Positions 43,888-60,648 of a DNA stretch of 64,000 bases are shown in pieces (position 1 is the stretch's first letter; each line of letters begins with the position of its first letter). The position numbers and the translations under genes were made by a program. Source of the DNA: Microbacterium sp. YJN-G (GTDB lineage Bacteria > Actinomycetota > Actinomycetes > Actinomycetales > Microbacteriaceae); contig NZ_CP060402.1 in the NCBI RefSeq assembly GCF_015040615.1, positions 2,976,001 to 3,040,000 on the forward strand. Direction: 5' to 3'. The notes beneath the pieces were generated by a model, which did not search any database, was not told the origin of the DNA, and worked only from the letters and a program-made list of their open reading frames with translations.

Positions 43888-44637
43888 ATGACGATCAGCG
43901 AATATGGGAAGGCCCTCGTCACCGGAGCGTCGACGGGCATCGGCGCGAAGCTCGTCGAGCGTCTCACCGCAGAGGGCGTCGAAGTGCATGCGATCGCTCG
44001 CGATGCCGAAAGACTCGAGCAGCTGGCCGAGCGGACGGGGGCGATCCCGCACGCGCTCGACCTGGGCGACACCGCGCAGCTCGAGGAGCTCATCCCCTCC
44101 CTGGAGATCGACATCCTCGCCAACATCGCCGGCGTCTCCCGGATGGGCAACATCCTCGACTCCTCGCGCGACGATCTCGACGCCCTCGTCGACATCAACC
44201 TCACGGCCGTTCTCCACCTCGTGCGTCTGGCGCTGCCCGGCATGGTCGAGCGTAACAGCGGGCACATCGTCAACATCAGCTCGATCGCCGCACACTACAA
44301 CTTCTTCGGCCACACCGCGTACCACGCGACCAAGGCTGCGATCCATCAGCTTTCGCGGCAGATCCGCAACGATACGCTCGGCAAGCGCATCCGGGTCACC
44401 GAGGTCTCACCCGGCCGCGTCGAGACAGAGATCTTCGGCCGCAACCTCGGTGGCACGCCAGAGGCGATCGCCGCGGCGCACAAGGAGTACTTCGAGGGTT
44501 ACGAGTCGCTGACGACGCAGGACGTCACCGATGCGATCATGTTCGCTCTGAGGATGCCGCGCCACGTCAATGTGGGCCTGCTCGAGCTGATGCCGACCTT
44601 CCAGGTTCCGGGCGGACTGACCTTCGACCGCCAGTGA
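43888..44637 (+). CDS. SDR-family oxidoreductase
   Basis: A 249-residue SDR: TGASTGIG near residue 12, a NIAG in place of NNAG, catalytic Ser in NISSIAAHYNFFGHTAYHATK with Tyr and Lys at the YxxxK. The end QVPGGLTFDRQ lacks the usual DGG. The class resembles serine/3-hydroxy-acid dehydrogenases of the YdfG type (VxxVxPGxVxTE block present as VTEVSPGRVETE). ATG 43888 follows GGGAGG. It overlaps the frame of the next gene's upstream region by four bases. In an operon with an aminotransferase, oxidation of a hydroxy-amino or hydroxy acid is plausible. Confidence 0.88.
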   Translation: MTISEYGKALVTGASTGIGAKLVERLTAEGVEVHAIARDAERLEQLAERTGAIPHALDLGDTAQLEELIPSLEIDILANIAGVSRMGNILDSSRDDLDALVDINLTAVLHLVRLALPGMVERNSGHIVNISSIAAHYNFFGHTAYHATKAAIHQLSRQIRNDTLGKRIRVTEVSPGRVETEIFGRNLGGTPEAIAAAHKEYFEGYESLTTQDVTDAIMFALRMPRHVNVGLLELMPTFQVPGGLTFDRQ

Positions 44638-44678
44638 CCCACCCATCAACCATCGCTTCCAATGTCGAAGAGGACGTC

Positions 44679-45887
44679 ATGAACACCACGAAGATCGCCG
44701 ACCGCGTCGAACGGATCCAGGAGTCAGCGAGCGGAGCGGCCGCACAGCGCGTCCGCGACCTGCGCGCCCAGGGCGTGCCCGTGCTCAGCCTCACTGTCGG
44801 TGAGCCGGACTTCGACACCCCCGAGAACATCAAGCGCGCAGCCGAACAGGCGCTGCGCGAAGGCGACACCAAGTACACGCCGGTCAACGGGACGCCGGAA
44901 CTGCAGCGCGCGATCCTCGCACGGGTCGCACGGCGCACCGGTGTGGAGTACTCCGCCGACGAGCTGGCGGTCGGCGGCGGCGGCAAGCAGGTCATCTTCC
45001 TGGCGTTCATGGCCACCGTCGAGGACGGCGACGAGGTGATCATCCCCGCTCCCTACTGGGTCTCGTACCCCGACATGGTGCTGGCCAACGGCGGCGAACC
45101 GGTGATCGTCCCCACGTCCGAGCAGGACGGGTTCCTGCTCACCCCCGATGCCCTGCGGACCGCGATCACCGATCGCACCGTGTGGCTCGTGCTCAACACA
45201 CCCAGCAACCCCACCGGAGCGGTGTACGGCCACGACGACCTCGCCGCCCTCGCGGATGTGCTGCGGGAACACCCCCATGTGAACGTGCTGACCGACGAGA
45301 TCTACGACGAACTGCACTACGGCCAGGGGCAAGTCGCGAGCCTGATCGAGGTGGCGCCTGATCTGCGCGACCGCGTCGTCACGGTGAACGGCGTCTCGAA
45401 GACGTACGCCATGACCGGCTGGCGCATCGGCTGGGGCACCGGCCCCCGGGAGATCATCGGCGCGGCGAACAAGCTGCAGTCGCAGATCTCCTCGTGTACG
45501 GCGTCGGTGAGTCAGGCCGCCGCTGTCGAGGCGCTCACCGGCGACCAGTCCTTCGTCGCCGAATCCGTCGAGGTCTATCGGCGTCGCCGCGACCTCGCTG
45601 TCGAGGGTTTCAACAGCATCCCCGGCCTGAGCTGCACTTCCCCGGACGGAGCGTTCTACGTCTACGTGAACTGCGCCGGCGTGATGGGGCGCACCGCTCC
45701 GAACGGAACGAAGATCGACTCGGATGAGGCTCTGACGCTCCACCTGCTCGACCGCGCGAAGGTCGCGGTGGTGCACGGCGCCGCCTACGGCCTCTCGCCG
45801 TACTTCCGGATCTCGTTCGCGACGAGCGAGGAGATCATCCAGGACGCAATCGACAGCATCCGCGCCGCAATCGCAGAGCTGGTCTGA
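44679..45887 (+). CDS. PLP-dependent aminotransferase, class I/II (aspartate-aminotransferase 1-beta type)
   Basis: A 402-residue fold-type-I aminotransferase. PLP lysine is K241 in SKTYAMTGWRIGW, with the conserved LNTPSNPTG, TDEIYDELHY and the C-terminal carboxylate-binding Arg in YFRISFATS. ATG 44679 after AGAGG is chosen; GTG 44634, overlapping the SDR stop, would add 15 residues without conservation. Between two SDRs it likely interconverts an amino acid and a keto acid made by them. Substrate specificity is not evident. Confidence 0.92.
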   Translation: MNTTKIADRVERIQESASGAAAQRVRDLRAQGVPVLSLTVGEPDFDTPENIKRAAEQALREGDTKYTPVNGTPELQRAILARVARRTGVEYSADELAVGGGGKQVIFLAFMATVEDGDEVIIPAPYWVSYPDMVLANGGEPVIVPTSEQDGFLLTPDALRTAITDRTVWLVLNTPSNPTGAVYGHDDLAALADVLREHPHVNVLTDEIYDELHYGQGQVASLIEVAPDLRDRVVTVNGVSKTYAMTGWRIGWGTGPREIIGAANKLQSQISSCTASVSQAAAVEALTGDQSFVAESVEVYRRRRDLAVEGFNSIPGLSCTSPDGAFYVYVNCAGVMGRTAPNGTKIDSDEALTLHLLDRAKVAVVHGAAYGLSPYFRISFATSEEIIQDAIDSIRAAIAELV

Positions 45888-46598: not shown

Positions 46599-47369
46599 GT
46601 GAGCAGGACGAATCCGCCGCCCCACGGAAGTCCCGCCGGCTACGACGCCGGATGCCGCTCGAAGGGCGGGTGTGCTCATGATGCCGCCAGCGCGCTTCTG
46701 ACCTGCGTCGAGGCGGCTCAGCGGCGCCGCGGCGACTTCATGCTCGCGCGGCTTCCCGCCGACGTGCCGCTGCCCCGGCATGAAGCACCCGACGCGACGA
46801 CCGGCTCCGGGCGCGATGCCTCGGAGGTCCATGGCACCTCGTGGGGATACCGCCGCGGCTGCCGCTCCCCGTACGCGTGTCCCAACTGGCGAACGGGTTC
46901 TCCGACCTGTGCCGATGCGCGTGCGCAGTACGTCCGAAGCTGGTCCCAACGGCGCCGGAACGCCCCTGATGCGCAGAGCATGCACGGCACGTCCGCCATG
47001 TACCTGCTCGGCTGCCGCGATCCGCAACTGTGCCCGGGAGATGAGCAGGGTCGGACGTGCACGCAGGCTCGTCGCGAGTACCGCCTGCAACTGCGCAGCA
47101 CAAAAGGCAAGATGCCGAAGCAGGAGCACGTCGACGCGGGGTTCGCGAAGCGGCGGATCGAGGCCTGGCTCGCCGACGGCTGCTCCATACGCGAGATCGC
47201 CCGCCGCACGGGGTGCGGGCGATCGACCATCGCGGCTATCGCCCGGCCGGAGAATTCCGGCCGGACGCGCATCTCACCGCAGACACTGCGCCGGATCTGC
47301 GCCGCGGCCGCACCGGATGGTCATGAGTCGCTCTCACTCGTCTCGGAGCCGCCCCTGTACCCGCGGTGA
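46599..47369 (+). CDS. Triple His-Cys-Cys-Cys motif protein with C-terminal helix-turn-helix
   Basis: A 256-residue protein without a named family that I recognise. It has three copies of H-G-[ST]-x3-Y-x2-G-C-R-x4-C-x8-10-C-x2-A: H9/C19/C25/C36, H78/C88/C94/C104 and H129/C139/C145/C154, each able to supply four metal ligands. Residues about 183-217 (RRIEAWLADGCSIREIARRT... STIAAIAR) look like a helix-turn-helix. The motif recalls the HGTxxxYxxGCRCxxC pattern common in actinophage proteins. GTG 46599 starts 5 bp after the SDR stop; the last 49 bp overlap the convergent cupin gene. Probably a DNA- or RNA-binding regulator, possibly phage-derived. Confidence 0.72.
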   Translation: MSRTNPPPHGSPAGYDAGCRSKGGCAHDAASALLTCVEAAQRRRGDFMLARLPADVPLPRHEAPDATTGSGRDASEVHGTSWGYRRGCRSPYACPNWRTGSPTCADARAQYVRSWSQRRRNAPDAQSMHGTSAMYLLGCRDPQLCPGDEQGRTCTQARREYRLQLRSTKGKMPKQEHVDAGFAKRRIEAWLADGCSIREIARRTGCGRSTIAAIARPENSGRTRISPQTLRRICAAAAPDGHESLSLVSEPPLYPR

Positions 47370-47950
47370 TCCGGGTTGGGCGCGAGCGTCCAGCCGTCGC
47401 CGTCCGCGACGACGAGGTTCTTCATGCCGCCGGCCTCGGCGATCACGCCGTAGTCCTGTCCGGCGTCCGCGGCGTAGCAGAACAGCGTCACGAACGGCTC
47501 GTCGCCGACGTTCACGCTGCGGTGGATCCAGTGACCAGGAACGTTGACGGCCTTGCCGGGGGTGAGCTCGATCGCGGCCGACTGGCCGTCGAGCGTCTCG
47601 AGCAGCATGACGCCGTGCCCGCTCAGGCAGTGGTACAGCTCGGCGCGGTCGCTGATCGCGTGGATGTGCCCGCGGGTCACCGCGAACTCCTCGCCGTAGC
47701 GACCGGGCAGCAGCGTGCTCGTGCCGACGATGAGGGCGCCTGGACCCTCCTGGTAGCGGTGGTCGTCGACCCAGTAGATCAGCTCGTCGCCGCCGCGCGC
47801 GGCGACGGCGGCCTGCCAGGCGGCGTCGTCGCGGTACACGCCGGCCATGTCGCCGAGGAACTTCTCGTAGCGCCGGCTGCGCCCCTCGATGCCGCCGTTC
47901 GGCGAGATCTCCAGGACGACCGGGGTGTCGACGGCTTTGGGGGTGCTCAC
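47321..47950 (-). CDS. Cupin-type glucose-6-phosphate isomerase family protein
   Basis: A 209-residue cupin matching archaeal-type phosphoglucose isomerase. The metal ligands align in spacing: H95, H97 (TRGHIHA), E104 (AELYHCLSG) and H143 (VPGHWIHRS). The family interconverts aldose and ketose phosphates. The housekeeping enzyme of actinobacteria is the unrelated large PGI, so this copy probably serves the adjacent kinase pathway. GTG 47950 follows GAGGAGG. It is divergent from the FGGY kinase over 77 bp and its 3' end overlaps the triple-motif gene by 49 bp. Confidence 0.88.
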   Translation of the reverse strand: MSTPKAVDTPVVLEISPNGGIEGRSRRYEKFLGDMAGVYRDDAAWQAAVAARGGDELIYWVDDHRYQEGPGALIVGTSTLLPGRYGEEFAVTRGHIHAISDRAELYHCLSGHGVMLLETLDGQSAAIELTPGKAVNVPGHWIHRSVNVGDEPFVTLFCYAADAGQDYGVIAEAGGMKNLVVADGDGWTLAPNPDHRGYRGGSETSESDS

Positions 47951-47968
47951 GATTGCCTCCTCGTAACT

Positions 47969-47986
47969 TGTAATTACAGGTATACT
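47969..47986. promoter_or_regulatory. Divergent promoter with TGTAATTACA palindrome
   Basis: TGTAATTACA (47969-47978) is a perfect 10-bp palindrome in a 77-bp gap, directly followed by TATACT (47981-47986), a plausible -10 for the kinase operon. GntR- or ROK-type control is possible; no regulator gene adjoins. Confidence 0.5.
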
Positions 47987-48027
47987 CCGAAACACCTCGA
48001 AACCCGAAACCGGACAGGGATGGATCT

Positions 48028-49536
48028 GTGATCATCGCGCACGACCTGGGCACGACCGGCAACAAGGCGTCCCTGCATCACGACGACGGCCGCCCCGTGG
48101 CATCCGTCACCGTGCCGTATCCGGCCCGCTTCGCGGCCGGCGGCTTCGCCGAGCAGAACCCGCAGGACTGGTGGGATGCCGTCGTCACCGCCACCCGCGA
48201 TCTGCTCGCGCGCACTGAGACCGCCGCCTCCGACGTGGCCGGGCTCGTCGTGAGCGGCCAGATGATGGGCGCGGTGCTGCTCGATGCCGACGGAGCGCCC
48301 ACCCGTCCGGCGATCATCTGGGCCGACACCCGCGCCGCTGCGCAGGTGCGCGAGCTCGAGGCGGCGCTCGGCTCCGAGCACGCCTACCGCCTGCTCGGAC
48401 ACCGCCTGAACCCCACCTACTCGCTCGCGAAGATCATGTGGGTGCGCGACAACGAGCCCGACATCTGGGCGCGGGTGCGCCGCGTCTGCGTCGCGAAGGA
48501 CTTCATCGTGCTGCGCCTCACCGGTCGTCTCGCGACCGACCGTTCGGATGCCTCGGGCACGAACGCCTACGATCAGCAGGCCGGCACCTGGTCGGACGAG
48601 GTGCTCGGCGCCGCGCGGCTCGACCCGGCACTGTTCCCCGAGATCCTCGACTCCACCGCGATCGCCGGCACGCTCACCGCGTCCGCCGCCGAGGCGCTCG
48701 GCCTCACCACAGACGTGCGCGTCGTGATGGGCGGCGGCGACGGCCCGATGGCCGCCGTCGGTTCGGGCATCGTCGCCCCCGAGGACGGCGCGTACGTGTG
48801 CCTCGGCACCAGCTCTTGGATCTCGTTCGCGGCGGATGCTCCGCTCCCCGACCCGCAGCTACGGACCTTCACCTTCGACAACGTCGTACCCGGATCGTTC
48901 GTGCCCACGGCGACGATGCAGGCCGGCGGAGCATCCGTGCAGTGGATCGCCGAGGCGCTCTCCCCCGACCCGTCGCGCCCCGAGACCGGGCGGCTCACGG
49001 CCGAGGCGGCGGACGGCATCGACACCGAAGACCTCTACTTCCTGCCGTACCTGCTCGGCGAGCGCTCCCCCATCTGGGACCCGGATGCTCGCGGCGCGTT
49101 CGTCGGCCTCGGCAGGCACCACACCCGCGCGCACCTCGTGCGCGCCGTGCTCGAGGGCACCGCGTTCAACCTGCTCAGCTGCATCCGGGCGTTCCGCGAG
49201 TCGGGCGCGGTGATCGACCGCATCGACGCGGTCGGCGGCGGCGCGCAGAGCGACGCCTATCTGTCGGTGCTCGCCGACGTCTGGGGCGTGCCGGTGCGCA
49301 GGCGCACGGTCGTCGAAGAGGCCAACAGTCTGGGGGCGGCCGTCACGGCCGCCGTCGGCCTCGACCTCGCCGAGTTCTCGGCTGCCCGCGCGCTCAGCGA
49401 GGTGACCGCCGAGTTCACTCCGGATGCCGCCCGCCACGCGGTCTACGCCGAGCGGCACGCCCGCTTCACCGACGCCTACGAGGCGCTCAAGCCCTGGTTC
49501 GCCGGTGCCCCGCGCGCGCAGGAGGGCACCCGCTGA
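48028..49536 (+). CDS. FGGY-family carbohydrate kinase (xylulokinase-like)
   Basis: A 502-residue two-domain kinase: the phosphate-1 motif DLGTTGNKASLH at residues 6-17, the SGQMMG substrate strip of xylulokinases, the catalytic Asp in GGGDGPMAAVGSG, and the adenosine motif GGGAQSDAYLSVLADVWG. It resembles xylulokinase, but no xylose isomerase is nearby. It leads an operon of five genes. The neighbours (lactonase, PdxB-like dehydrogenase, cupin isomerase) suggest the phosphorylated product is oxidised rather than sent to the pentose-phosphate pathway. GTG 48028 follows AGGGATGG. Confidence 0.92.
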   Translation: MIIAHDLGTTGNKASLHHDDGRPVASVTVPYPARFAAGGFAEQNPQDWWDAVVTATRDLLARTETAASDVAGLVVSGQMMGAVLLDADGAPTRPAIIWADTRAAAQVRELEAALGSEHAYRLLGHRLNPTYSLAKIMWVRDNEPDIWARVRRVCVAKDFIVLRLTGRLATDRSDASGTNAYDQQAGTWSDEVLGAARLDPALFPEILDSTAIAGTLTASAAEALGLTTDVRVVMGGGDGPMAAVGSGIVAPEDGAYVCLGTSSWISFAADAPLPDPQLRTFTFDNVVPGSFVPTATMQAGGASVQWIAEALSPDPSRPETGRLTAEAADGIDTEDLYFLPYLLGERSPIWDPDARGAFVGLGRHHTRAHLVRAVLEGTAFNLLSCIRAFRESGAVIDRIDAVGGGAQSDAYLSVLADVWGVPVRRRTVVEEANSLGAAVTAAVGLDLAEFSAARALSEVTAEFTPDAARHAVYAERHARFTDAYEALKPWFAGAPRAQEGTR

Positions 49537-50492
49537 TGGCCGTGATCCTCGTCACCAGCCGCTCCTTCTCGGACGGCGACCTCGACCTCGTGGCGCGTGC
49601 CGCCGACGCCGGGCATGAGATCGTGCGCGGCCCCGCCCACCACGACCTCGACGAGCTGCGCCCCCTGCTGCAGCGCGCCGACGCGTGGATCGCCGGCACC
49701 GGCCCGGTCACCGACGCGCACCTCGCCGCGGCGCCGTCGCTGACGATCGTGGCCCGCTACGGCGTCGGCTACGAAGCCGTCGACCTCGAAGCAGCGGTCG
49801 CCCGCGGCATCCTCGTGACGAACACCCCCGGCGCGAACGCCGATGCCGTCGCCGACCACGCCGTGGGCCTCATGCTCGCGGCGCTGCGCACCATCCCCGA
49901 CGGCGACCGCCGGGTGCGGGCGGGCGACTGGAGCGTGCGCCGCGGGCGCGAGCTCGGCGCGGCGACCGTCGGCGTCGTCGGGTTCGGCCGCATCGGGCAG
50001 GGCGTCGCGCGCCGCCTCAGCGGCTTCGGCTGCCGCATCCTCGCGTCCGACCCATTCCTCCCCGAGGAGCGGATGCGGGATGCCGGCGCCGAACCCACCG
50101 ACCTCGACGAGCTGTTCCGCACCGCCGACGTGATCACGCTGCACGCCCCCGGCGGGCAGCGGCTGGTCGACGCGGCACGGGTCGCGAGCATCCGTCCCGG
50201 CACCGTGCTGGTGAACACCGCCCGCCCCGACCTCGTCGACGAGGCGGCGATCGCCGGCGCGCTGCGCGACGGCATCCTCACCGCCTTCGCCGCCGACACC
50301 CTCGACGGCGACACGGCGGCGAGCGCGAGCCCCCTGCTCGCCGACGACCTCGCCGACCGGGTGATCGTCACCCCGCATCTGGCCGCGCAGACCACGCAGG
50401 CCGTCGACAACATGGGCCGCCTGTCGCTCGACGACGTCATCGCCGTGCTGCGCGGCGAGGCGCCCACCCACCCCGTAAGGAGCAGCGCATGA
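49536..50492 (+). CDS. D-isomer-specific 2-hydroxyacid dehydrogenase (SerA/PdxB-like)
   Basis: A 318-residue NAD-dependent dehydrogenase with VGFGRIGQGVARRL, LVNTARPDLVDE (the catalytic Arg is kept, the usual Gly after it is Pro), FAADTLDGD and TPHLAAQTTQA. The expected Glu of the catalytic triad lies in a region reading DTLDGDTAAS, so the acidic partner may be Asp. The fold includes erythronate-4-phosphate and 3-phosphoglycerate dehydrogenases, so a phospho-aldonate is a plausible substrate. ATG 49536 is fused with the kinase stop (TGATG). Confidence 0.88.
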   Translation: MAVILVTSRSFSDGDLDLVARAADAGHEIVRGPAHHDLDELRPLLQRADAWIAGTGPVTDAHLAAAPSLTIVARYGVGYEAVDLEAAVARGILVTNTPGANADAVADHAVGLMLAALRTIPDGDRRVRAGDWSVRRGRELGAATVGVVGFGRIGQGVARRLSGFGCRILASDPFLPEERMRDAGAEPTDLDELFRTADVITLHAPGGQRLVDAARVASIRPGTVLVNTARPDLVDEAAIAGALRDGILTAFAADTLDGDTAASASPLLADDLADRVIVTPHLAAQTTQAVDNMGRLSLDDVIAVLRGEAPTHPVRSSA

Positions 50493-51412
50493 CCCGCCCC
50501 GATGACTACATGGGCTTCGTCGGTGTCACCACCGGCTCGTCGTCGATCATGAAGGTGTTCCCGCTGTGGGCCGACATCCTCGGCCTGCCCACGCGCACCC
50601 TCGTCGGCCACGACCTGCCGATGGATGCCGACCCGTCGGTGTACCGCGCGATGGTCGAGCAGATCCGCGATGACGAGCAGCACCGCGGCGCACTGGTCAC
50701 GACCCACAAGATGAACGTGTTCGCCGCGGCATCCGACCTGTTCGACGAGCTCGACCCGTTCGCGGTGTCGTGCAGCGAGATCTCGAGCATCTCGAAACGC
50801 GGCGACCGGCTCATCGGCCGCGCGAAGGACCCGATCACGGTCGACCTGGCGCTGAACGACTTCCTGCCCGCCGGCCACTTCGCGCGCACCGGCGCTGAGG
50901 TCGTCATCCTCGGCGCCGGCGGCTCGGGCACGGCGCTCAGCTGGGCGCTCGCGGAGCGCGCCGACGCACCCGCGCGGGTGACGGTCACCGCCCGTTCGCA
51001 GGACAAGCTCGACCACCTGCGCGAGGTGCACCGCCAGCACGGCACCGCCGAGGATCTCATCCGCTACGTGGTCACCGAGACCCCCGAGGATGCCGATGCC
51101 CTGGTCGCCGCGGCCCCCGCCGGCTCGGTGATCGCCAACGCCACCGGCCTCGGCAAGGACCGCCCCGGTTCGCCGCTGACGGACGCCGTGGAGTACCCCG
51201 AGCACGCCTGGGTGTGGGAGTTCAACTACCGCGGGTCGCTGGAGTTCATGCATCAGGCGCTGGCGCAGCGCGAGGTGCGCTCGCTGCAGGTCGTCGACGG
51301 CTGGCGGTACTTCATCCACGGCTGGTCGCAGGTCGTCGCCGACGTGTTCGAACTCGACCTGACGCCCGAGATCGTCGAGCGGCTCGCGACCGCCGCGGAG
51401 TCGGTGCGCTGA
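50489..51412 (+). CDS. Shikimate dehydrogenase-like NAD(P) oxidoreductase
   Basis: A 307-residue protein with the AroE layout. The N-terminal substrate domain opens FVGVTTGSSSIMKVFPLWADIL, with Ser residues where AroE binds shikimate, and has ALVTTHKMNVF supplying the catalytic Lys. The Rossmann part carries LGAGGSGTALSWAL, and the C-terminal block is WVWEFNYRGSLEFMHQA. The usual Asn/Asp pair of true AroE is altered and the biosynthetic aro genes are absent, so it is an AroE-like dehydrogenase of unknown substrate. ATG 50489 overlaps the upstream stop (ATGA) after AAGGAG. Confidence 0.85.
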   Translation: MTRPDDYMGFVGVTTGSSSIMKVFPLWADILGLPTRTLVGHDLPMDADPSVYRAMVEQIRDDEQHRGALVTTHKMNVFAAASDLFDELDPFAVSCSEISSISKRGDRLIGRAKDPITVDLALNDFLPAGHFARTGAEVVILGAGGSGTALSWALAERADAPARVTVTARSQDKLDHLREVHRQHGTAEDLIRYVVTETPEDADALVAAAPAGSVIANATGLGKDRPGSPLTDAVEYPEHAWVWEFNYRGSLEFMHQALAQREVRSLQVVDGWRYFIHGWSQVVADVFELDLTPEIVERLATAAESVR

Positions 51413-52377
51413 TGTCGTCCGCCGGGGTGGTGCGCACGGTGCTCGGCGACGTCGATCCGGCGTCGCTGGGGCGGGTGAACTACCACGAGCACCTGTTCCA
51501 GGTCTCGCCCCTCCTCCCCGGCGACGAACTCGACGACGAGGGCGCGTCTGGCGCCGAGGCCGCGCTGCTGAAGGCGAGCGGCTTCGAGGCCATGGTCGAT
51601 GCGACCCCCTTCGGGCTCGGCCGGAATCCGGAGGCGCTGGCGCGGATCTCGGCATCCACCGGGCTGGCCATCGTCGCGACCACGGGCCGGCACCGCGAGG
51701 CCCACTACGCCGCCGACCACCCCACCCGGGACTGGTCGGTGGATCGGCTCGCGGAGCTGTTCACGGCCGACGTGGCGGTCGGCATGCCGGCATCCGATTC
51801 CGCGCCGAAGGGATCTCGGGCGACCGGGCCCGCCAGCGAGCCGGTGCGGGCCGGGATGCTGAAGGGCGGCGCCGACTACTGGCGGATCAGCCCGTTCGAG
51901 CGGACGACGCTCGAGGCGCTGGCCGCCGCGCACCGCGCCACCGGCGCCCCGATCATGGTGCACCTGGAGTTCTGCACGGCCGCACACGAGGTGCTCGACC
52001 TGCTGGCATCCGCGGGTGTCGCCGCCGACCGCGTCGTGCTCGCGCACGCCGACCGCGACCCGGATGCCGGACTGCACCTGTCGCTCACCGAGCGCGGCGC
52101 CTACCTGGGTTACGACGGCTTCGCCCGTCCGCGCACCCGGTCGGATGCCGAACTGCTCGCGCTGACGGCATCCGTGGTCTCCGGCGGCGGAGCCGACCGC
52201 ATCGTGCTCGGCGGCGACGTCGCCCGCCGCACCCGCTACATCGCCTACGGCGGCATGCCCGGCCTCGCCTATCTCGGCGAGCGGTACGTGCCGCGGCTGC
52301 GCACCCTGGTCGGCGACGACGCCGTCGAGCGGATGCTGACCGCCAACCCCGCCCGCCTGCTGACGCTTTCCGCCTGA
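51412..52377 (+). CDS. Phosphotriesterase-family lactonase
   Basis: A 321-residue amidohydrolase-fold enzyme with every metal ligand of the PTE family: H25 and H27 (YHEHL), K151 (bridging, in GMLKGG), H184 (VHLEF), H212 (AHADRDPD) and D269 (LGGDVARR). Bacterial homologues outside true phosphotriesterases are lactonases, including phospho-furanose lactonases acting on pentonolactone 5-phosphates. In an operon with a sugar kinase and two dehydrogenases, a phosphorylated lactone is the likely substrate. ATG 51412 is fused with the upstream stop (TGATG). Confidence 0.9.
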   Translation: MSSAGVVRTVLGDVDPASLGRVNYHEHLFQVSPLLPGDELDDEGASGAEAALLKASGFEAMVDATPFGLGRNPEALARISASTGLAIVATTGRHREAHYAADHPTRDWSVDRLAELFTADVAVGMPASDSAPKGSRATGPASEPVRAGMLKGGADYWRISPFERTTLEALAAAHRATGAPIMVHLEFCTAAHEVLDLLASAGVAADRVVLAHADRDPDAGLHLSLTERGAYLGYDGFARPRTRSDAELLALTASVVSGGGADRIVLGGDVARRTRYIAYGGMPGLAYLGERYVPRLRTLVGDDAVERMLTANPARLLTLSA

Positions 52378-52386
52378 AGGAGCATC

Positions 52387-52683
52387 ATGACCGAACCCAC
52401 CATCCTGCACGCGACCTTCACCGCCCGTCCGGGTGAGGGCGACCGGGTCGCCGCGCTGCTGCGAGACTTCGCGGATGCCGTGCGCGCCGAACCGGGCAAC
52501 GTGGTGTTCGACGCAACCCAGCTGGTGGAGGATCCCGAGCGCTTCTTCGTCTACGAGGAGTACGTCGACGAGGCGGCCTTCCAGGCGCACCTCGCCAACC
52601 CCGCCGGCGGCCCCTTCAACGCCGCCCTGCAGGAGCTCATCGTCGAGCCGCACTCGCAGCTGACGTTCCTGCGCCGGATCTGA
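52387..52683 (+). CDS. ABM-domain protein (putative quinol monooxygenase, YgiN-like)
   Basis: A 98-residue dimeric alpha/beta-barrel protein: TILHATFTARPGEGDRVAALL, FDATQLVEDPERFFVYEEYVDEAAFQAHLANP, matching the ABM family in length and order. Members act as cofactor-free monooxygenases, but many in catabolic operons have no proven role, and LsrG of this family isomerises a phosphorylated signal molecule. It ends the kinase-lactonase operon, 9 bp after the lactonase, after GAAGGAG. Confidence 0.9.
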   Translation: MTEPTILHATFTARPGEGDRVAALLRDFADAVRAEPGNVVFDATQLVEDPERFFVYEEYVDEAAFQAHLANPAGGPFNAALQELIVEPHSQLTFLRRI

Positions 52684-52887: not shown

Positions 52888-53889
52888 TCACTCGTAGAGG
52901 ACGTCGGCGATCTTCGGGTCGTCGATGTTGGTCGCGTCGTACCAGTACGAACCGGTGTCGTAGAACTCGTCGATCGACTCGCCGTTGGCTGCCGCCACGG
53001 CCGACTCGACGGTGCGGGCGCCGATGCCGATCGGGTCCTGGGTGATCGCGCCGGCCATGGTGCCGTCCTTGATCGCCGCGATCTGGGCTGCGCCCGAGTC
53101 GAAGCCGATGATGGTCAGCTTGCCCTTCTCGAGGCCGAGCTCCTTGACGGCGTTCACGACGCCGATGGCCGAGCCCTCGTTGGTGCCGTAGATGCCCTTG
53201 AGGTTCGGGTGCGCAGCGATCATCGTCTTGGCGATGTCGGCCGACTTCAGGTGGTCGCCGTCACCGTACTGGATGTCGACGATCTTGATGTTCGGGAAGT
53301 CTGCCTCGATCTTCTCGACGAAGCCGTCACGACGCTCGACACCGGTCGAGTTGATCTGCGAGTGGCCGACGATCGCGACCTCGCCCTCGCCGCCGATCAG
53401 CTCTGCCATGTGCTCAGCGGCCAGCGCGCCGGCGACCTTGCTGTCGGTCGCAGCCAGACTCAGGCCCACGTCGCCGTTGCATGGGGCGTCGAAGTAGACG
53501 ACCGGGATGTCCTTGGCCTTGGCCTGCTCGAGCGGGGCGACGCACGCCTCGGGGTCGAGCGCGGCGTAGCCGATGGCATCCGGGTTGCTGTTGATCGCGG
53601 TGGTGAGCATGTCGAGCTGCTGCGCGATCTCGGTCTCGGCCGCGGGACCCTCGAAGGTCACGCGAACGCCGAGCTCTTCGGCCTTCTGCTCGGCGCCGGT
53701 CTTGACGGCCTGCCAGAACTGGTGCTGGAAGCCCTTCGAGACCAGGGCGATGTACATCTCGCCGTCGCCTGCCGGTGCACCGCCCTCGGGTGCCTCTTCG
53801 ACAACCTCGCCGCCGGCACAGCCGGCCATGACGAGTGCGGACGCTGCGAGCAGCGCTGCGAATGCAGACGTCTTCTTGCTGAATCGCAT
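52888..53889 (-). CDS. Sugar ABC transporter substrate-binding lipoprotein (CUT2, ribose/fucose type)
   Basis: A 333-residue periplasmic-binding-protein type I (RbsB-like) receptor. The signal peptide ends in MAGC (Cys 24), followed by an acidic linker and MYIALVSKGFQHQFWQAVKTGAEQKA. The domain shows the two-lobed pattern with YFDAPCNGD and GFDSGAAQIAAI. It is the last gene of an ATPase-permease-receptor operon. The adjoining fucose-oxidation genes point to L-fucose or a similar 6-deoxy sugar. Confidence 0.93.
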   Translation of the reverse strand: MRFSKKTSAFAALLAASALVMAGCAGGEVVEEAPEGGAPAGDGEMYIALVSKGFQHQFWQAVKTGAEQKAEELGVRVTFEGPAAETEIAQQLDMLTTAINSNPDAIGYAALDPEACVAPLEQAKAKDIPVVYFDAPCNGDVGLSLAATDSKVAGALAAEHMAELIGGEGEVAIVGHSQINSTGVERRDGFVEKIEADFPNIKIVDIQYGDGDHLKSADIAKTMIAAHPNLKGIYGTNEGSAIGVVNAVKELGLEKGKLTIIGFDSGAAQIAAIKDGTMAGAITQDPIGIGARTVESAVAAANGESIDEFYDTGSYWYDATNIDDPKIADVLYE

Positions 53890-54052: not shown

Positions 54053-55084
54053 TTAGGTGCGCTGGCGGTTGCGCAGCGAGTCGAAGAACACGGCCAGCAG
54101 CACGACGACGCCGACGACGACGTTCTGCCACTCCGACTGGATCGACATGATCCGCAGGCCGTTCACCAGCACGCTCATGATGAGCGCACCGATCACGGTG
54201 CCGATGATCGAGCCGCGTCCGCCCAGCAGCGAGGTGCCGCCGATGATGACGGCGGCGATCGCCTGCAGCTCGTAGCCCATGCCGATCTGCGGCTGAGCCG
54301 AGTCGAGGCGCGAGGCGATCACGACGCCCGCGACGCCGATGAAGGCGCCCGCGAACATGTAGACGAAGATCGTCCAGCGGCGGGTGTTGACACCCGAGAG
54401 GCGGGTGGCCTCCTCGTTCGAGCCGATCGCGAAGGTGTAGCGGCCCAGCAGGGTCTTCGACAGCACGATGGCCGAGATGATCGCCAGCACGATGGTGATC
54501 AGCACGGCGTTCGGGATGCCGGGGATCATCACGCCGAGGGCGATCTTCTTGAAGTCGGGAGCCGAGGTCGAGAAGTAGATCGGGCGCACGCCCGAGATGA
54601 CCAGGGCGAGACCGCCGGCGATCATCATCATCGCGAGGGTCGCGATGAACGGGGGCAGGCGCAGGAAGGTGATGTTCACGCCGTTGATGAGGCCCATCAG
54701 CACACCGGTGCCGATGCCGCCGAGCACGCCGACCCAGATCGGCAGGCCCCAGTTGGTGATGAACACACCGGTCATCACCGCACACAGGGCCATACCGGTT
54801 CCGAGCGACAGGTCGATGCCGCCGGTGATGATGACGAACGTGGTGCCGAGGGCGAGGATCGCGATCACGGCGGTCGACAGCAGCACGGTGGTCATGTTGC
54901 TAACGGTGAAGAACGCGGGGCTGGCGATCGAGAAGAAGATCACCAGCACCACGAGGGTGCCGAATGCCAGCGACTGCTGCAGCTGGCGCTTGAGCAGGCC
55001 CTTGACGTCGCGAGCGTCGGTGTTCTCGCTGACGGCCTGCTGGACGACGGTCGTCGTCGATCCGGAGTGGGATGGGTTGCTCAT
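54053..55084 (-). CDS. Sugar ABC transporter permease, RbsC type (CUT2)
   Basis: A 343-residue permease with about ten hydrophobic segments and the family blocks LALGTTFVIITGGIDLSLG and IGGTSLLGGRGSI. A 35-residue hydrophilic arm precedes the first helix. ATG 55084 overlaps the ATPase stop (ATGA); the longer open frame upstream lies inside the ATPase gene and was rejected. It forms the homodimeric channel for the importer. Confidence 0.93.
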   Translation of the reverse strand: MSNPSHSGSTTTVVQQAVSENTDARDVKGLLKRQLQQSLAFGTLVVLVIFFSIASPAFFTVSNMTTVLLSTAVIAILALGTTFVIITGGIDLSLGTGMALCAVMTGVFITNWGLPIWVGVLGGIGTGVLMGLINGVNITFLRLPPFIATLAMMMIAGGLALVISGVRPIYFSTSAPDFKKIALGVMIPGIPNAVLITIVLAIISAIVLSKTLLGRYTFAIGSNEEATRLSGVNTRRWTIFVYMFAGAFIGVAGVVIASRLDSAQPQIGMGYELQAIAAVIIGGTSLLGGRGSIIGTVIGALIMSVLVNGLRIMSIQSEWQNVVVGVVVLLAVFFDSLRNRQRT

Positions 55085-56586
55085 CGGTCTTCCTCCCCGT
55101 GGGCTGCGAGCTGCATGATCTTCTCCTGGCTGGCTTCCTCGTTGCGGAGGGTGCCGGTGATCCGTCCGTTCGCGAACACGGCGATGCGGTTCGCGACGCG
55201 CAGGATCTCCGGCAGCTCCGACGAGATGACGATGATGGACTTGCCGGATGCCGCGAGCTGCTGCATCAGGCGGTAGATCTCCTCCTTGGCCCCGACGTCG
55301 ATGCCACGGGTGGGCTCGTCGAAGATGAGGATGTCGCAGTCGCGCATCAGCCACCGGGCGATGACGACCTTCTGCTGGTTCCCCCCGGACAGCAGCTTGA
55401 CGATCTGGTTGACCGAGGGGGTCTTCACGCGCAGCTGCTGCACGTAGTCCTTGGTCTGGTTCTTCGCCTTGCGGTCGCCCATCCAGCCGAGCGCGTTGGC
55501 GTAGTTGCTCAGCGACGCCAGCACGGTGTTGAACGTGACGTCCTGCTCGAGCATGAGGCCGAGCAGCTTGCGGTCCTCGGACAGGTAGCCGATGCCGCGG
55601 CGCACGGCATCCTCGGGATGCCGGATGCGGGCGCGCTGCCCGGCGACGGTGATGGTGCCGCTGTCGCGGTGGTCGGCGCCGATGATCGCGCGGGCGGTCT
55701 CGGTGCGGCCGGCGCCCATCAGCCCGGCGAAGCCGAGGATCTCACCGCGGTGCAGCTGGAACGAGACGTCCTTCAGCAGCGACCTGGTCGACAGGTCCTG
55801 CACGTCGAGCACGATCGGGTCGCCGAGGTGCTCGCGCGCCTCGGGGCGCGCACCCTCGTCGATGACCCGACCGACCATCATCTCGATGATCTTCGGGATG
55901 CTGACCTCGCTCTTCTCGAGCGAGCCGATGTACTGGCCGTCTCGCAGCACCGAGACGCGGTCGGCCAGGCGCTTGAGCTCGTCCATGCGGTGCGAGATGT
56001 AGACGATGCCGGTGCCGCCGGCCTTCAGCTGCTCGATGAGGCGGAACAGCGTCTCGACCTCGGTGTCGGTGAGGGCCGAGGTCGGCTCGTCCATGATGAG
56101 CACCTTGGCGTTGAACGACAGCGCCTTGGCGATCTCGACCATCTGCTGCTCGGCGACGGTGAGGTCGCCGACGAGCGAGCGCGGGTCGAGGTCGATGCCC
56201 AGGCGGCGCAGCAGGTCGCGGGTCTCGCGGTTCAGCTTGCGCTCGGAGAGGAAGGGACCGACCTTGGGCTCGCGGCCGACGAAGATGTTCTGCGCGACCG
56301 TGAGGTCGGGCATCATGTTCAGCTCCTGGTGGATGATCGTGATCCCGAGCTGCTGCGCCTGCAGCGGGCTGGTCAGCTCGACCTGCTCGCCTTCGAAGGT
56401 GATGGTGCCCTCGTCGCGCGTGTAGATGCCCGAGAGGATCTTCATCAGCGTCGACTTGCCGGCGCCGTTCTCCCCCACCAGCACCAGCACCTCGCCGGCG
56501 CGCACCTCGAGGTGCACGTCCTTGAGCGCCTGCACGCCGGGAAAGCCCTTGCTGATTCCCTCGACTTTGAGGATCGGATCGCTCAT
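55081..56586 (-). CDS. Sugar ABC transporter double ATPase, RbsA type (CUT2)
   Basis: A 501-residue tandem ATPase. Domain 1 has Walker A GENGAGKST (about 38-46), signature TVAEQQMVEIAKAL and Walker B LIMDEPTSALT. Domain 2 has the usual degenerate Walker A (GLMGAGRTE), signature LSGGNQQKVVIARWL and Walker B LIFDEPTRGID. This fused form is diagnostic of CUT2 importers. ATG 56586 with GGGAG at nine bases is preferred over GTG 56592. First gene of the importer operon, with about 200 bp of upstream control region. Confidence 0.94.
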   Translation of the reverse strand: MSDPILKVEGISKGFPGVQALKDVHLEVRAGEVLVLVGENGAGKSTLMKILSGIYTRDEGTITFEGEQVELTSPLQAQQLGITIIHQELNMMPDLTVAQNIFVGREPKVGPFLSERKLNRETRDLLRRLGIDLDPRSLVGDLTVAEQQMVEIAKALSFNAKVLIMDEPTSALTDTEVETLFRLIEQLKAGGTGIVYISHRMDELKRLADRVSVLRDGQYIGSLEKSEVSIPKIIEMMVGRVIDEGARPEAREHLGDPIVLDVQDLSTRSLLKDVSFQLHRGEILGFAGLMGAGRTETARAIIGADHRDSGTITVAGQRARIRHPEDAVRRGIGYLSEDRKLLGLMLEQDVTFNTVLASLSNYANALGWMGDRKAKNQTKDYVQQLRVKTPSVNQIVKLLSGGNQQKVVIARWLMRDCDILIFDEPTRGIDVGAKEEIYRLMQQLAASGKSIIVISSELPEILRVANRIAVFANGRITGTLRNEEASQEKIMQLAAHGEEDR

Positions 56587-56680
56587 GCCCACCTGCTCCC
56601 TCGGAGGTCGTTGTCGATTCGCTTGGAATCCATTTCAAACATCGGGTCAATTGTGCGCTTCATCATCGCATCGCGCAAGT

Positions 56681-56699: not shown

Positions 56700-56783
56700 C
56701 GATGATCGGCATCGCCAGACCTGTAATAACATCTTCATCACAACCCGGTCGGCACGCGTGCGGCGGCTGTCCATGAGGCCGTT

Positions 56784-57653
56784 TCAGTGCAGCCGGATCG
56801 AGTCCACCGCGATGAGCTTGTCGCGGATGAAGCGGTTGGCGTGGGCACCGAGCTCTTCGTTGTCGGTCCACAGGTTGCGCCAGATGCCCAGCATCCGGCT
56901 GAGGTCCTCGGCGACGACCGCCGACGAGAACGACTCGAACACCACCGGGCCGTCGTAGCCGATGCGCCCGAGCGCCTTGAAGAAGTTGTCGAAGTCGACC
57001 GTGCCCGTGCCGAGGTAGCCGCGGTGGCTCTCGCCGATGTGCACGTAGCGCAGCTGCGGGGCGGCATCCAGCACCGGAGCCGCCATATCCGACTCCTCGA
57101 TGTTCATGTGGTACGTGTCCAGGTGGATGCCGAGGTTGGGCCGGTCGACCTCGGCGAGGTACGCGATGGCCTGCCGCGCCGTGTTGAGCACGTTGGTCTC
57201 GTAGCGGTTGACGACCTCGAGCGAGACGCTGACGCCACGGGATGCCGCATGGTCGGCGACCCGTGCGATCACCGCGCGGCTGCTCTCCAGGCCCTGCGGG
57301 GTGACCGGCATCATGTACTTGCGCATGGCGGAGTAGATGACGCCGCAGAAGTGCGTGCCGCCCATGTCGGCGAGCACGTCGACGGCGCGGATCAGCAGCG
57401 CCTCGCCTGCGGCGACGGCCTCGGGGTCCTCGCTGGTGACGTCGGTGGCATCCGACAGCCCGAGCGAGGCGCTCACGGCGAGGCCGTGCTCGGCGAGCGC
57501 CGCCTTCGCGGCATCCACATCGAAGGAGAACGGATCCATCAGCGGGAACTCGATCAGGTCGAATCCGGCCTGCGCGGTCTTCTCGACGGCCAGGCGGATG
57601 CCGTCGGCGTCGAAGGTGCCGGTCCAGACCAGGCCATGGCATCCGATGTTCAT
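56784..57653 (-). CDS. Ketose 3-epimerase-like sugar isomerase (tagatose/psicose epimerase family)
   Basis: A 289-residue TIM-barrel epimerase with the DTE/DPE metal site: Glu in SLEVVNRYE, Asp in HLDTYHMNIEE, His in HIGESHRGYLG and Glu in VVFESFSS. These enzymes epimerise ketohexoses at C3, and relatives act on L-ribulose and other rare sugars. Placed between fucose importer and mutarotase, it may channel a side sugar (an L-ketose or 6-deoxyketose) into the route; it is not required in the core fucose oxidation pathway. ATG 57653 has a weak upstream purine run. Confidence 0.9.
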   Translation of the reverse strand: MNIGCHGLVWTGTFDADGIRLAVEKTAQAGFDLIEFPLMDPFSFDVDAAKAALAEHGLAVSASLGLSDATDVTSEDPEAVAAGEALLIRAVDVLADMGGTHFCGVIYSAMRKYMMPVTPQGLESSRAVIARVADHAASRGVSVSLEVVNRYETNVLNTARQAIAYLAEVDRPNLGIHLDTYHMNIEESDMAAPVLDAAPQLRYVHIGESHRGYLGTGTVDFDNFFKALGRIGYDGPVVFESFSSAVVAEDLSRMLGIWRNLWTDNEELGAHANRFIRDKLIAVDSIRLH

Positions 57654-57715
57654 GTGATCTCCTCTTCGAGTCGGGGTTCTCGTGTGGGGTGGGTTCGTGT
57701 GGGTCGCGGACGGTG

Positions 57716-58135
57716 TCAGGCGGACGGATGCCCGACCACGCCCTTGCGCAGCAGAGCGTTGCCGTACTTGCGGGTCTCGCCGGTGCGCACCATCAGGTAT
57801 GCGCCCTTGGCGACGTCGTAGTAGGCGAACCGCTCCACGAAGCGGGTCGTCTCGGGGTTCGTGCCCGCGGCATCCATCAGCTCGTGCTGCACGTCGAGCA
57901 CCACGGCATCCGCCGACTCCATCAGGTCCATGCCCGGTGCGTCATCCAGCGGCAGCACCGAGCGGATCGCGGCGACCACCTCGGGGGTCGTGGTGCCGGG
58001 CAGGTCGATGACCCGCTCGCCCAGCGCCCAGGCCGGGAAGTGCGCGTCGGCGACGACCACCGAGTCGGAGTGTCCCATCCGGTCGAGGTGCAGCAGCAGC
58101 TCGCCCGTGAGCAGGGGGTTGATTCCCTCAAGCAT
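57716..58135 (-). CDS. fucU: L-fucose mutarotase (RbsD/FucU family)
   Basis: A 139-residue FucU-type mutarotase, opening MLEGINPLLTGELLLHLDRMGHSD with the conserved His of the family, then VVVADAHFPA and YYDVAKGAYLMVRTGETRKYGNALLRKG, the FucU rather than RbsD ending. It interconverts the anomers of L-fucose for the pyranose-specific dehydrogenase. ATG 58135 follows GAGAGGAA; the longer frame upstream runs through the palindromic control region. Confidence 0.92.
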   Translation of the reverse strand: MLEGINPLLTGELLLHLDRMGHSDSVVVADAHFPAWALGERVIDLPGTTTPEVVAAIRSVLPLDDAPGMDLMESADAVVLDVQHELMDAAGTNPETTRFVERFAYYDVAKGAYLMVRTGETRKYGNALLRKGVVGHPSA

Positions 58136-58154
58136 CCGGTTCCTCTCGTCCTTC

Positions 58155-58217
58155 CGTCTATATGTCACAAAGTGCCGGTATCAGCGGCGGATTTCGAGAC
58201 TTTGCGCCATATAGACG
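58155..58217. promoter_or_regulatory. Inverted pair of a 19-bp motif between fucU and the fucose dehydrogenase gene
   Basis: CGTCTATATGTCACAAAGT (58155-58173) and, inverted, CGTCTATATGGCGCAAAGT (58199-58217) agree at 17 of 19 positions and are separated by 25 bp. As transcript they could fold as a long imperfect hairpin; as DNA they look like a dimeric operator pair. They lie in the 96-bp gap before fucU. Confidence 0.6.
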
Positions 58218-58231
58218 CGTTCTTTGGGGGG

Positions 58232-59221
58232 TCAGGGGGTGGGGATCAGGCGGGCCTCGGCCAGCTCGGCCCACAGCCCGGCGGGGATCTCGAGCGCGGC
58301 GTACTCCGCATTCTGCGTCAGCTGCGCGGGGCGGCTGCCGCCGACCACGACCGAGCGCACCAGGGCCGACTGCAGCGGGAACTGGATCGCCGCCGCCGGC
58401 AGCGGCACGTCGTGGTTGCGGCAGATCGCGGCGATCCGCACCAGGCGATCCCACAGCTCATCGGGCAGCTGACCGTACTCGTAGCGTCCGTCGCGCTTCG
58501 GCTCGCTCTGCGCGAGCAGTCCGGAATTGAAGACGGATGCCGCGACGATCCCGGTGGCGTTCTCAGCGCATGCAGGCAGCACCTCGGTGGCCGCGGGCTG
58601 CTCGAGCAGCGTGTAGCGCCCGGCGACCATGATGAGGTCGAGGTCCGCCTCGCGGACCGCCCGGGTCAGGGCATCCGACACCATCGAGCCGATGCCGATC
58701 GCCTTCACGACGCCCTCGGCGCGCACCTTCTCGAGCGCCGGGAAGGCCGAGGCGAGCGCGAGGTCGAGGTCGTGCCGCTCGGGGTCGTGCAGGTACAGCA
58801 GGTCGATGCGGTCGAGCCCGAGCCGCTCCTGCGACTCGGCGATGCTCGCACGGATGCCCTGCTCGGTGAAGTCCCACTCGCGGCGCAGGTCGTCGGGCAC
58901 GTGGAAGTCGTTGTCGGTGTCCAGGCCGCTCGGCCGGCGCTCGGGGTTCGGGCGCAGCAGGCGCCCGGCCTTGGTCGACACGACGAACTCGTCGCGCGGC
59001 TTGGTCTGCAGGAAGGCACCGAGGCGCTTCTCGCTCAGCCCGAGCCCGTAGTGCGGCGCGGTGTCGTAATAGCGGATGCCGGCATCCCACGCCGCCTCGA
59101 GCACGGCCCAGGCCTCGTCATCGCTCAGCGCGCGGAAGAGGTTGCCCACGTTGGCGGCGCCGTAGCCGAGGGCCGGGATGGCCAGGCCGGCAGCGGCCGC
59201 GGCAGGCTCAGTCGATGACAT
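58232..59221 (-). CDS. L-fucose dehydrogenase / D-threo-aldose 1-dehydrogenase (AKR family)
   Basis: A 329-residue AKR. The catalytic Asp-Tyr lie in [14 protein letters not shown], Lys in VSTKAGR, His in LYLHDPE, and the cofactor block is [14 protein letters not shown]. The variant [12 protein letters not shown] is typical of D-threo-aldose and L-fucose dehydrogenases, which oxidise L-fucose to fuconolactone with NAD(P). It overlaps the fuconate dehydratase gene by 14 bp, so both are cotranslated. Confidence 0.9.
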
Positions 59222-60503
59222 GCTGGCCCGTCCAGGTGTACTTCGCGATGCTGTCGGCCTTCATCTCCATGCTCGTGCCCGGCGCGGTGGGCGCCATGTA
59301 CGAACCGCCCTGGATGTCGGTCGGCACCACGAAGTGCTCGTGCAGGTGATCGACGAACTCGATCATCCGACCCTCGCGGGTGCCGGTGACGGCGACGAAG
59401 TCGAACATCGACAGGTGCTGCACCGCCTCGCACAGCCCGACGCCGCCCGCGTGCGGGCAGACCGGCACGCCGAACTTCGCGGCCAGCAGCAGGTTGGCGA
59501 TGTTCTCGTTGACGCCGGCGACGCGCACCGAGTCGATCTGCATGACCTTGATGGCATCCGCCTGCAGCAGCTGCTTGAAGATCACCCGGTTCTGCGCGTG
59601 CTCGCCGGTGGCAACGCGGATCGGGGCGACGCCACGGGCGATCTCGGCGTGGCCGAGCACGTCATCCGGGCTGGTGGGCTCCTCGATCCAGGCGGGGTTG
59701 AACTCGGCAAGCGCGTTCACCCACTCGATCGCCTCCGACACCTCCCAGCGCTGGTTGGCGTCGATCGCGATCGGGAAGTCGGGGCCGCACACCTCGCGGG
59801 CCTTGCGGAAGCGGCGGATGTCGTCCTCGAGGTCGGCGCCCACCTTGAGCTTGATCTGCGTGAACCCGTCGGCCATCGCCTCGCGGGCCAGGCGCTCGAG
59901 CTTCTCGTCCGAGTAGCCCAGCCAGCCGGGGCTGGTGGTGTAGGCCGGGTAGCCGGTGGCCAGCAGCTCGGCCTCGCGCTCCTCGCGCCCGGGCACAGCC
60001 GCGCGCAGGATCTCCAGGGCCTCCTCGCGGGTGAGGGCGTTGGTCAGGTAGCGGAAGTCGACGAGGTCGACGATCTCTTCGGGGGTCATCCGGCTCAGCA
60101 GCTGCCAGAGCGGCATCCCTGCGCGCTTGGCCTTGATGTCCCACAGCGCGTTGATCGCGGCGCCGATCGCCATGTGCATGACGCCCTTCTCGGGGCCGAG
60201 CCAGCGCAGCTGCGAGTCGCCGATGACGTCGCGGAACGTGCCGCCCATGTCATCCAGCAGCGGCTCGAGCTCGCGACCGACGAGGTGGCCGGCGAGCGCG
60301 TCGATCGCGGCGACCTGCACATCGTTGCCGCGGCCGATGGTGAACACGAACGAGTGGCCGTCGATGCCGTCCTCGGCATCCGTGCGGACGATGACGTAGG
60401 CCGCCGAGTAGTCGGGGTCGGGGTTCATCGCGTCCGAGCCGTCGAGGCTCAGGGACGTGGGGAAGCGGATGTCGCTGGTCTCCAGCGCGACGATACGGCT
60501 CAC
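59208..60503 (-). CDS. fucD: L-fuconate dehydratase (enolase superfamily)
   Basis: Dehydrates L-fuconate to 2-keto-3-deoxy-L-fuconate. The 431-residue length matches FucD/ENOSF1 enzymes. Catalytic elements of the superfamily are present: KxK in QIKLKVG, metal Asp/Glu/Glu in [15 protein letters not shown] and ATGEHAQN, and the His base in [15 protein letters not shown]. The N terminus [22 protein letters not shown] is the FucD signature region. It is the first gene of a minus-strand operon with the dehydrogenase gene, and divergent from the diketo-acid hydrolase gene. Confidence 0.95.
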
Positions 60504-60543
60504 GGCTCTCCTTCGGGTGCGTCAGCGAACATGACGCGGACAC

Positions 60544-60572: not shown

Positions 60573-60648
60573 GTCAACGGCGGCCGCCGCGACGGCATCC
60601 GTCTCCCGCAGTGGTACAAAGCGGTAGAAGATGAGCAGAAGGAGAACC

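Follow-up and report, generated by a model that had tools for sequence, protein, structure and literature searches.

Why does a relative of shikimate dehydrogenase (AroE) lie among genes for sugar enzymes in Microbacterium sp. YJN-G? The window that we analysed is the whole stretch of 64,000 nucleotides at positions 2,976,001 to 3,040,000 of contig NZ_CP060402.1, from a genome of 3.62 Mb. Six of its neighbouring genes encode, in window coordinates, a protein of the cupin-type phosphoglucose isomerase family (PF06560; 47321..47950, minus strand) and, on the plus strand, an FGGY carbohydrate kinase resembling XylB (48028..49536), a D-isomer-specific 2-hydroxyacid dehydrogenase (49536..50492), an AroE-fold dehydrogenase (50489..51412), a PTE-family protein (51412..52377) and an ABM-domain protein (52387..52683). 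They represent a sugar module that is real, widely conserved and apparently undescribed. We give a probability of about one half to the reading that this module serves to break down an imported ketose by phosphorylation and oxidation, with the order of steps proposed below.

The open reading frames, the reading of the sequence and the family searches bear out the six genes named in the original prediction, and the open reading frames and family search also confirm that the cupin gene is divergent from the others. The prediction had all the plus-strand genes joined by overlaps. This holds for three of the four junctions (TGATG at 49534-49538, ATGA at 50489-50492 and TGATG at 51410-51414), whereas the PTE and ABM genes are separated by a gap of 9 bp (52378-52386). 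The cupin gene likely starts at the GTG at 47950 rather than at the start of its open reading frame at 47995, because GAGGAGG lies just upstream of this codon. The divergent gap between the cupin and kinase genes would therefore be 77 bp.

Conservation of the gene set

We searched for the AroE-like protein in 299 genomes of the family, in 72,556 plasmid records and in a wider genome collection. It was found in 39 of the family genomes and in 15 plasmid records, and its relatives are encoded at no fewer than 580 stretches of the genome collection (589 pattern-matched stretches). Among the matches listed, the closest named relatives were from Microbacterium, with up to 92% identity. Gene neighbourhoods were compiled for 126 loci: 7 from plasmids, 39 from the family and 80 named ones, the latter being the best 80 of at least 580 and leaning to Microbacterium. 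Merging five pairs with an identical AroE core left 121 loci. Families were assigned by BLAST (more than 60 bits against references from the window and the plasmid loci) within a neighbourhood of 8 kb. Matches to FGGY kinases or binding proteins in these counts may be unrelated paralogs, and loci truncated by contig ends were retained, which depresses the counts. Residue conservation is given over unmerged rows, with one reference row in each set.

The neighbourhoods included an FGGY kinase in 107 of the 121 loci, from several phyla, a 2-hydroxyacid dehydrogenase in 105, a cupin in 102, and a candidate lactonase in 105 (PTE in 88, a metallo-beta-lactamase (MBL)-fold protein in 18, both in one). 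Cupin, kinase, hydroxyacid dehydrogenase and lactonase were jointly present in 91 loci, and six loci (L081, L083, L084, L136, L159, L161) had none of the other families. The original prediction depended on these genes being kept together, and in this survey the set stays together across phyla. The ABM gene is an optional member of the module, found in 19 loci, 18 of them from Microbacterium.

A search for the cupin in whole genomes served as an independent control for these counts. PF06560 matched 38 of the 299 family genomes, 36 of them strongly and two weakly (G103, G268). All 36 strong matches fell within the 39 AroE-positive genomes (Fisher test, 1.6e-40), and both weak ones were in AroE-negative genomes. 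In the three AroE-positive genomes lacking the cupin (G097, G159, G209) the AroE-like gene is isolated.

Five minimal operons (L124, L134, L140, L143, L147) have the gene order GntR, cupin, binding protein, ATPase, permease, kinase, hydroxyacid dehydrogenase, aldolase (when present), AroE-like and PTE. The gaps from the cupin to the PTE gene do not exceed 220 bp, and no dehydratase gene lies between these two in any of the five operons. Such a gene content points to the imported sugar itself as the substrate of the kinase, with no dehydratase involved. Other loci add polyol-type dehydrogenases or a GlpK-type kinase, which would fit the entry of several sugars at the level of the ketose phosphate.

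The original prediction knew of no described pathway with this exact gene set. In agreement with it, we found no description of the set, or of a role for the AroE-like protein, in the open-licence papers of PMC, subscription papers being outside this search.

Related arrangements were also observed. A second type of module (L044:10461-15783, also L076, L079, L082, L107) has a GlpK-like kinase, which in L044 exceeds the GlpK cutoff, genes resembling galactitol-phosphate dehydrogenase, and an MBL-fold protein. A variant of the module in seven loci (L042, L070, L074, L137, L139, L151, L153) combines the kinase motif SGQSLG or SGHSLG with a DeoC-type aldolase. In one AroE-negative Microbacterium genome (L176, G215:C1:926001-938000) an aldolase, an FGGY kinase and a hydroxyacid dehydrogenase are clustered in a similar way, but no AroE-like gene accompanies them. 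Finally, a protein encoded near the module at L058:4011-5714 and in 11 further loci forms one cluster; it had no NCBIfam match at 1e-10 and presumably resembles L-fucose or L-arabinose isomerase.

Predicted functions of the module proteins

The cupin protein scores 118.7 bits with PF06560 (Pfam cutoff 20.7), and its solved match is the phosphoglucose isomerase 1j3p (5e-40). Both metal sites claimed by the original prediction are complete, counting the residues that we take to be the ligands: H109, H111 and E118 (108 of 108 rows) and H157 (107 of 108) in the cupin, and H25, H27, K151, H184, H212 and D269 in the PTE protein (92-94 of 94 rows). The kinase passes the cutoff of the xylulokinase XylB model TIGR01312 (399 against 380 bits), and its solved match is the xylulose kinase 2itm (6.8e-71). 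Two alphaproteobacterial module kinases fall below this cutoff, with 346 and 326 bits.

The 2-hydroxyacid dehydrogenase has conserved R230 (111/111), D or E at position 259 (110/111) and H281 (110/111). The original prediction had likened it to PdxB, a reading that we reject on score (96.7 bits for an NCBIfam cutoff of 434). Its LsrG label for the ABM protein fell in the same way (32 bits, cutoff 135), together with the associated reading as a system for autoinducer-2 (AI-2). The module does share with AI-2 (Lsr) processing an FGGY kinase, an ABM protein and an RbsABC-type transporter, but besides LsrG the scores for autoinducer-2 kinase (165 of 528 bits) and LsrB (69 of 384) are also below cutoff.

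The AroE-like protein passes no NCBIfam cutoff (June 2026 release), its best score with the shikimate dehydrogenase models being 40.1 bits for a cutoff of 252, and a Pfam scan gave no family above cutoff. Its predicted structure, of high confidence (pLDDT 94.1), shows the AroE fold (Foldseek match to 2hk9, 4.0e-16, TM 0.72/0.82). Like shikimate dehydrogenases it has Lys74 and Asp114, invariant in 42 of 42 rows and aligned with what we take to be the catalytic pair of these enzymes. Unlike them it has Ser99 opposite the Asn of the NT motif, and the genome encodes a separate AroE (PF08501) elsewhere. K103, K223 and R248 are also invariant (42/42), K113 nearly so (41/42), and the cofactor loop (NADP versus NAD) varies among the AroE-like proteins.

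Among solved structures, the 5-ketofructose reductase 7cok ranks third for the AroE-like profile (2.7e-7) and also matches the structure model (8.8e-15, rank 26). One paper presents this reductase as an AroE-family enzyme acting on a sugar, and one shikimate-dehydrogenase-like protein as inactive on 5-ketofructose (PMC7954740). Another places AroE and YdiB in iminosugar formation, through reduction of an imine or of a rearranged ketone (PMC9881201). Sugars and sugar-like rings can thus be substrates of enzymes from the AroE family. The original prediction saw no obvious role for the AroE-like enzyme in known pathways. A putative role can now be assigned: the enzyme may oxidise the anomeric carbon of an aldose phosphate and thereby yield a phospho-lactone.

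The closest solved relative of the PTE protein is 3pnz (1.3e-36), which we take to be Lmo2620, a hydrolase of phosphorylated sugar lactones. Its K242, K244, R275 and Y278 presumably grip the distal phosphate, and the matched 3pnz sequence has these kinds of residues at these positions. They align with R239 (94 of 94 rows), R241 (R or K in 92), R272 (92) and R275 (92) of the module PTE, where one Arg is retained and two Lys and one Tyr are replaced by Arg. The protein thus shares with the phospho-furanose lactonase 3pnz the PTE family, the six metal ligands and positive residues on the phosphate side, but it scores 96.4 bits with the phospho-furanose lactonase model NF045706, under the cutoff of 630.

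In actinobacterial modules the candidate lactonase is the PTE protein, whereas in alphaproteobacterial ones a UlaG-like MBL-fold protein stands in its place. The latter was found in all seven plasmid loci read and in L174, in 8 of 10 named alphaproteobacterial loci (L146 and L164 have neither MBL-fold nor PTE protein), and also in L082, L107 and L162. A single sequence matched UlaG weakly and another hydrolase better; a profile of 12 sequences had UlaG (L-ascorbate-6-phosphate lactonase) as its best solved match (4.7e-19). The one member scanned, that of L040, had no NCBIfam match at 1e-15. UlaG is a phospho-lactonase too, but the similarity is at the profile level only and concerns a protein found in relatives, not in the window. 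Since two phospho-lactonase-like folds interchange, the phospho-lactone step is supported, and nothing else points as strongly to the reaction at the lactonase step as this mutual replacement.

A PF01081-type aldolase, the type acting on 2-keto-3-deoxy-6-phosphogluconate (KDPG), was found in 65 of the 121 neighbourhoods: 63 of the 88 outside Microbacterium versus 2 of the 33 within it. Its gene is usually the one immediately preceding the AroE-like gene in the same orientation (53 of the 65 loci). E41, T69, P90, K129 and F131 are present in all 71 rows of module aldolases, K129 being presumably the Schiff-base Lys of KDPG aldolase. The genome of the window has two PF01081 genes. One of them (L168:8081-8758), about 23 kb past the window's end, exceeds the cutoff of the KDPG aldolase model TIGR01182 (188 against 156 bits). 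Its best module match is the aldolase inside the L109 module (80% identity), followed by four at 59-69%, and it shares only about 35% with more distant module aldolases. The second gene has 35-43% identity to its five best module aldolases. PF01081 was present in 38 of the 39 AroE-positive genomes versus 127 of the 260 others of the family, a co-occurrence that is partly circular because many of the 38 carry the aldolase inside the module. A DeoC aldolase was found in eight of the 121 neighbourhoods, and the DeoC protein of one tested locus exceeds the cutoff for deoxyribose-phosphate aldolase; its presence hints at deoxy sugars.

Beyond the ABM gene, the minus strand encodes the substrate-binding protein (52888..53889), the permease (54053..55084) and the ATP-binding protein (55081..56592) of a sugar ABC transporter. 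The best NCBIfam matches of the binding protein are D-allose, rhamnose and ribose models, all below cutoff, and a homologous protein was found in 90 of the 121 neighbourhoods. A palindromic operator-like word lies in the cupin/kinase gap (47966..47981, core TGTAATTACA), with a second copy upstream of the transporter genes (56719..56734, core TGTAATAACA). Apart from these two, the window has no exact site of the core TGTNATNACA; 0.30 sites are expected, two or more occurred in 4 of 100 shuffles, and the window alone is therefore modest evidence. Allowing up to three mismatches, the 14-base word matches four times, at each of the two sites in both orientations, where 0.15 matches are expected, a result reached in 0 of 100 shuffles. 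In 65 loci, many of them closely related, we counted 111 copies of the core where base composition predicts 1.9, with at least one copy in 53 loci and none in 12, including the minimal operon L140. The sites mostly precede the cupin or kinase gene and the transporter, and in seven loci a ribokinase-like gene. Judging from these positions, the word may act as an operator linking the ABC transporter to the operon. A GntR-type gene lies beside the module in many relatives; in window positions 40001-64000 no open reading frame matched the GntR reference.

The proposed route and its alternatives

We propose that the RbsABC-type transporter would import the sugar, that the FGGY kinase would turn it into a ketose phosphate and that the cupin isomerase would convert the latter to an aldose phosphate. 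The AroE-fold enzyme would then oxidise the anomeric carbon, giving a phospho-lactone that the PTE protein, or the UlaG-like enzyme in alphaproteobacteria, would open to an aldonate phosphate. The 2-hydroxyacid dehydrogenase would produce a 2-keto phospho-acid, and the KDPG-type aldolase, encoded outside the cluster in this genome, would split this acid into a small aldehyde phosphate and pyruvate. We infer each of these reactions, as well as their order, the substrate and the action of the regulator. The original prediction had put forward the same order of phosphorylation, isomerisation, oxidation to a phospho-lactone, opening and renewed oxidation; this order fits the families found and the joint conservation of the set, whereas the PdxB and LsrG labels attached to it do not hold. 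The KDPG-type aldolase, the ABC transporter, the operator-like word common to transporter and operon, and the exchange of PTE and UlaG-like proteins had no place in that prediction.

KDPG-type aldolases release pyruvate, for which carbon 3 of the acid has to be a CH2 group. Because of this, and because the minimal operons have no dehydratase between the cupin and PTE genes, the sugar would already lack the oxygen at carbon 3. A 3-deoxyketose is thus a tentative candidate for the substrate; with 3-deoxyfructose, for example, the product of the 2-hydroxyacid dehydrogenase would be exactly KDPG. The module could then be, as an equally tentative proposition, a dehydratase-free variant of the Entner-Doudoroff pathway for 3-deoxyketoses such as 3-deoxyfructose arising from degraded sugars, in which the kinase, the cupin, the AroE-fold enzyme, either lactonase and the hydroxyacid dehydrogenase deliver KDPG to the aldolase. 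Like the Entner-Doudoroff pathway, the proposed route would lead from an aldose phosphate through a lactone phosphate to an aldonate phosphate and end with a KDPG-type aldolase. Unlike it, the module begins with a kinase and a cupin isomerase, has an AroE fold in place of glucose-6-phosphate dehydrogenase, and has a second dehydrogenase instead of a dehydratase between the cupin and PTE genes of the five minimal operons.

Several observations weigh against the route or its deoxy substrate. The aldolase is missing from 56 of the 121 neighbourhoods, including 31 of the 33 from Microbacterium, is absent from the cluster in the window, and occurs in only two of the five minimal operons (L140 and L147). 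The aldolase gene past the window's end has an ortholog (84%) with similar neighbours in genome G106, which lacks the module. The enzyme is therefore available, not dedicated to the route, and the idea that its gene was relocated for this pathway alone is weakened. Position 45 of the module aldolases is Ser in 39 of 71 rows and Arg in 29. In L039 an annotated dihydroxyacid/phosphogluconate dehydratase is encoded at a distance of 3.5 kb from the AroE-like gene, and the window itself encodes a sugar-acid-dehydratase-like protein at 59211-60503 (best score 137 bits, cutoff 500); the genome has one PF00920 gene (C1:1393250, IlvD or Edd). The kinase, above the xylulokinase cutoff, would suit an ordinary pentulose. 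Its motif is QMMG in actinobacteria and QMHG in the alphaproteobacterial module kinases, which led us to drop QMMG as a marker of a deoxy substrate. The operator-like word also precedes the ribokinase gene in the seven loci mentioned above. Finally, bacteria have, to our knowledge, not been reported to grow on 3-deoxyfructose.

The main rival is an ordinary ketose with hydroxypyruvate as a product. An ordinary ketohexose would pass through the same steps to a 2-keto-3-hydroxy phospho-acid, to be cleaved into hydroxypyruvate and glyceraldehyde 3-phosphate. The gene set would be identical, the kinase is of the XylB type, and relatives have genes for a ribokinase, RbsD and an epimerase-like protein close by. 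A PF01261 protein at 56784-57653 scores 67 bits with hydroxypyruvate isomerase, but this is far below the cutoff of 353, and genes handling hydroxypyruvate were not systematically searched. The five constant residues of the aldolase fit a pyruvate-type donor, and simpler epimerase routes exist for ordinary ketose phosphates, which makes a ketohexose an unlikely substrate. A pentulose is less likely still. Its 5-phosphate would be converted to an aldopentose 5-phosphate, a pentono-1,4-lactone 5-phosphate and a pentonate 5-phosphate, from which the route would continue. The XylB-like kinase above cutoff would suit this substrate, as would 3pnz as the closest solved PTE, whose reported substrates are D-lyxono- and L-ribono-1,4-lactone 5-phosphate. 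Yet the module PTE scores 96 bits against the lactonase cutoff of 630, pentulose 5-phosphates feed the pentose phosphate pathway directly, and the final cleavage would yield glycolaldehyde phosphate.

The AroE-like enzyme might instead act on the ketone of a keto-sugar, like 5-ketofructose reductase, rather than on the anomeric carbon, and the steps would then follow a different order. The profile and structural matches to 7cok speak for this, but no recognised lactone-forming enzyme would be left between the cupin and PTE genes of the minimal operons, and we consider it doubtful. A normal xylulose operon in which the other genes are unrelated passengers, suggested by the kinase score with TIGR01312, is very improbable and was set aside on conservation, as the remaining genes stay together across phyla and the cupin and AroE-like genes co-occur in 36 genomes.

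Neighbouring genes and significance of the module

Beside the transporter, the window encodes at 56784-62270 a mutarotase-like protein (88 of 141 bits), an aldo/keto reductase, the sugar-acid-dehydratase-like protein (137 of 500), an FAH-family hydrolase (279 of 500) and an SDR protein. No protein of this cluster exceeds the cutoff of its best named model. We take it to look like an oxidative pathway for a 6-deoxysugar (L-fucose-like), and many Microbacteriaceae as well as two Arthrobacter loci keep a cluster of this type close to the module. A ribokinase and a D-ribose pyranase, both above cutoff, are encoded beside the module in L138:4406-5404, L120:4764-5357 and relatives. Upstream of the cupin gene, an aspartate transaminase gene (44634-45884; 647.8 bits, cutoff 617) lies between two SDR genes.

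All eight annotated records that we inspected label the AroE-like gene shikimate dehydrogenase or shikimate 5-dehydrogenase. Since at least 580 stretches encode a relative of this protein, a single assay could put many annotations right. If the proposed route is true, the AroE fold gains a new job in sugar breakdown, and two unrelated enzymes fill one phospho-lactonase step. If the substrate is indeed a 3-deoxy sugar, the module would show by what route bacteria feed on sugar degradation products.

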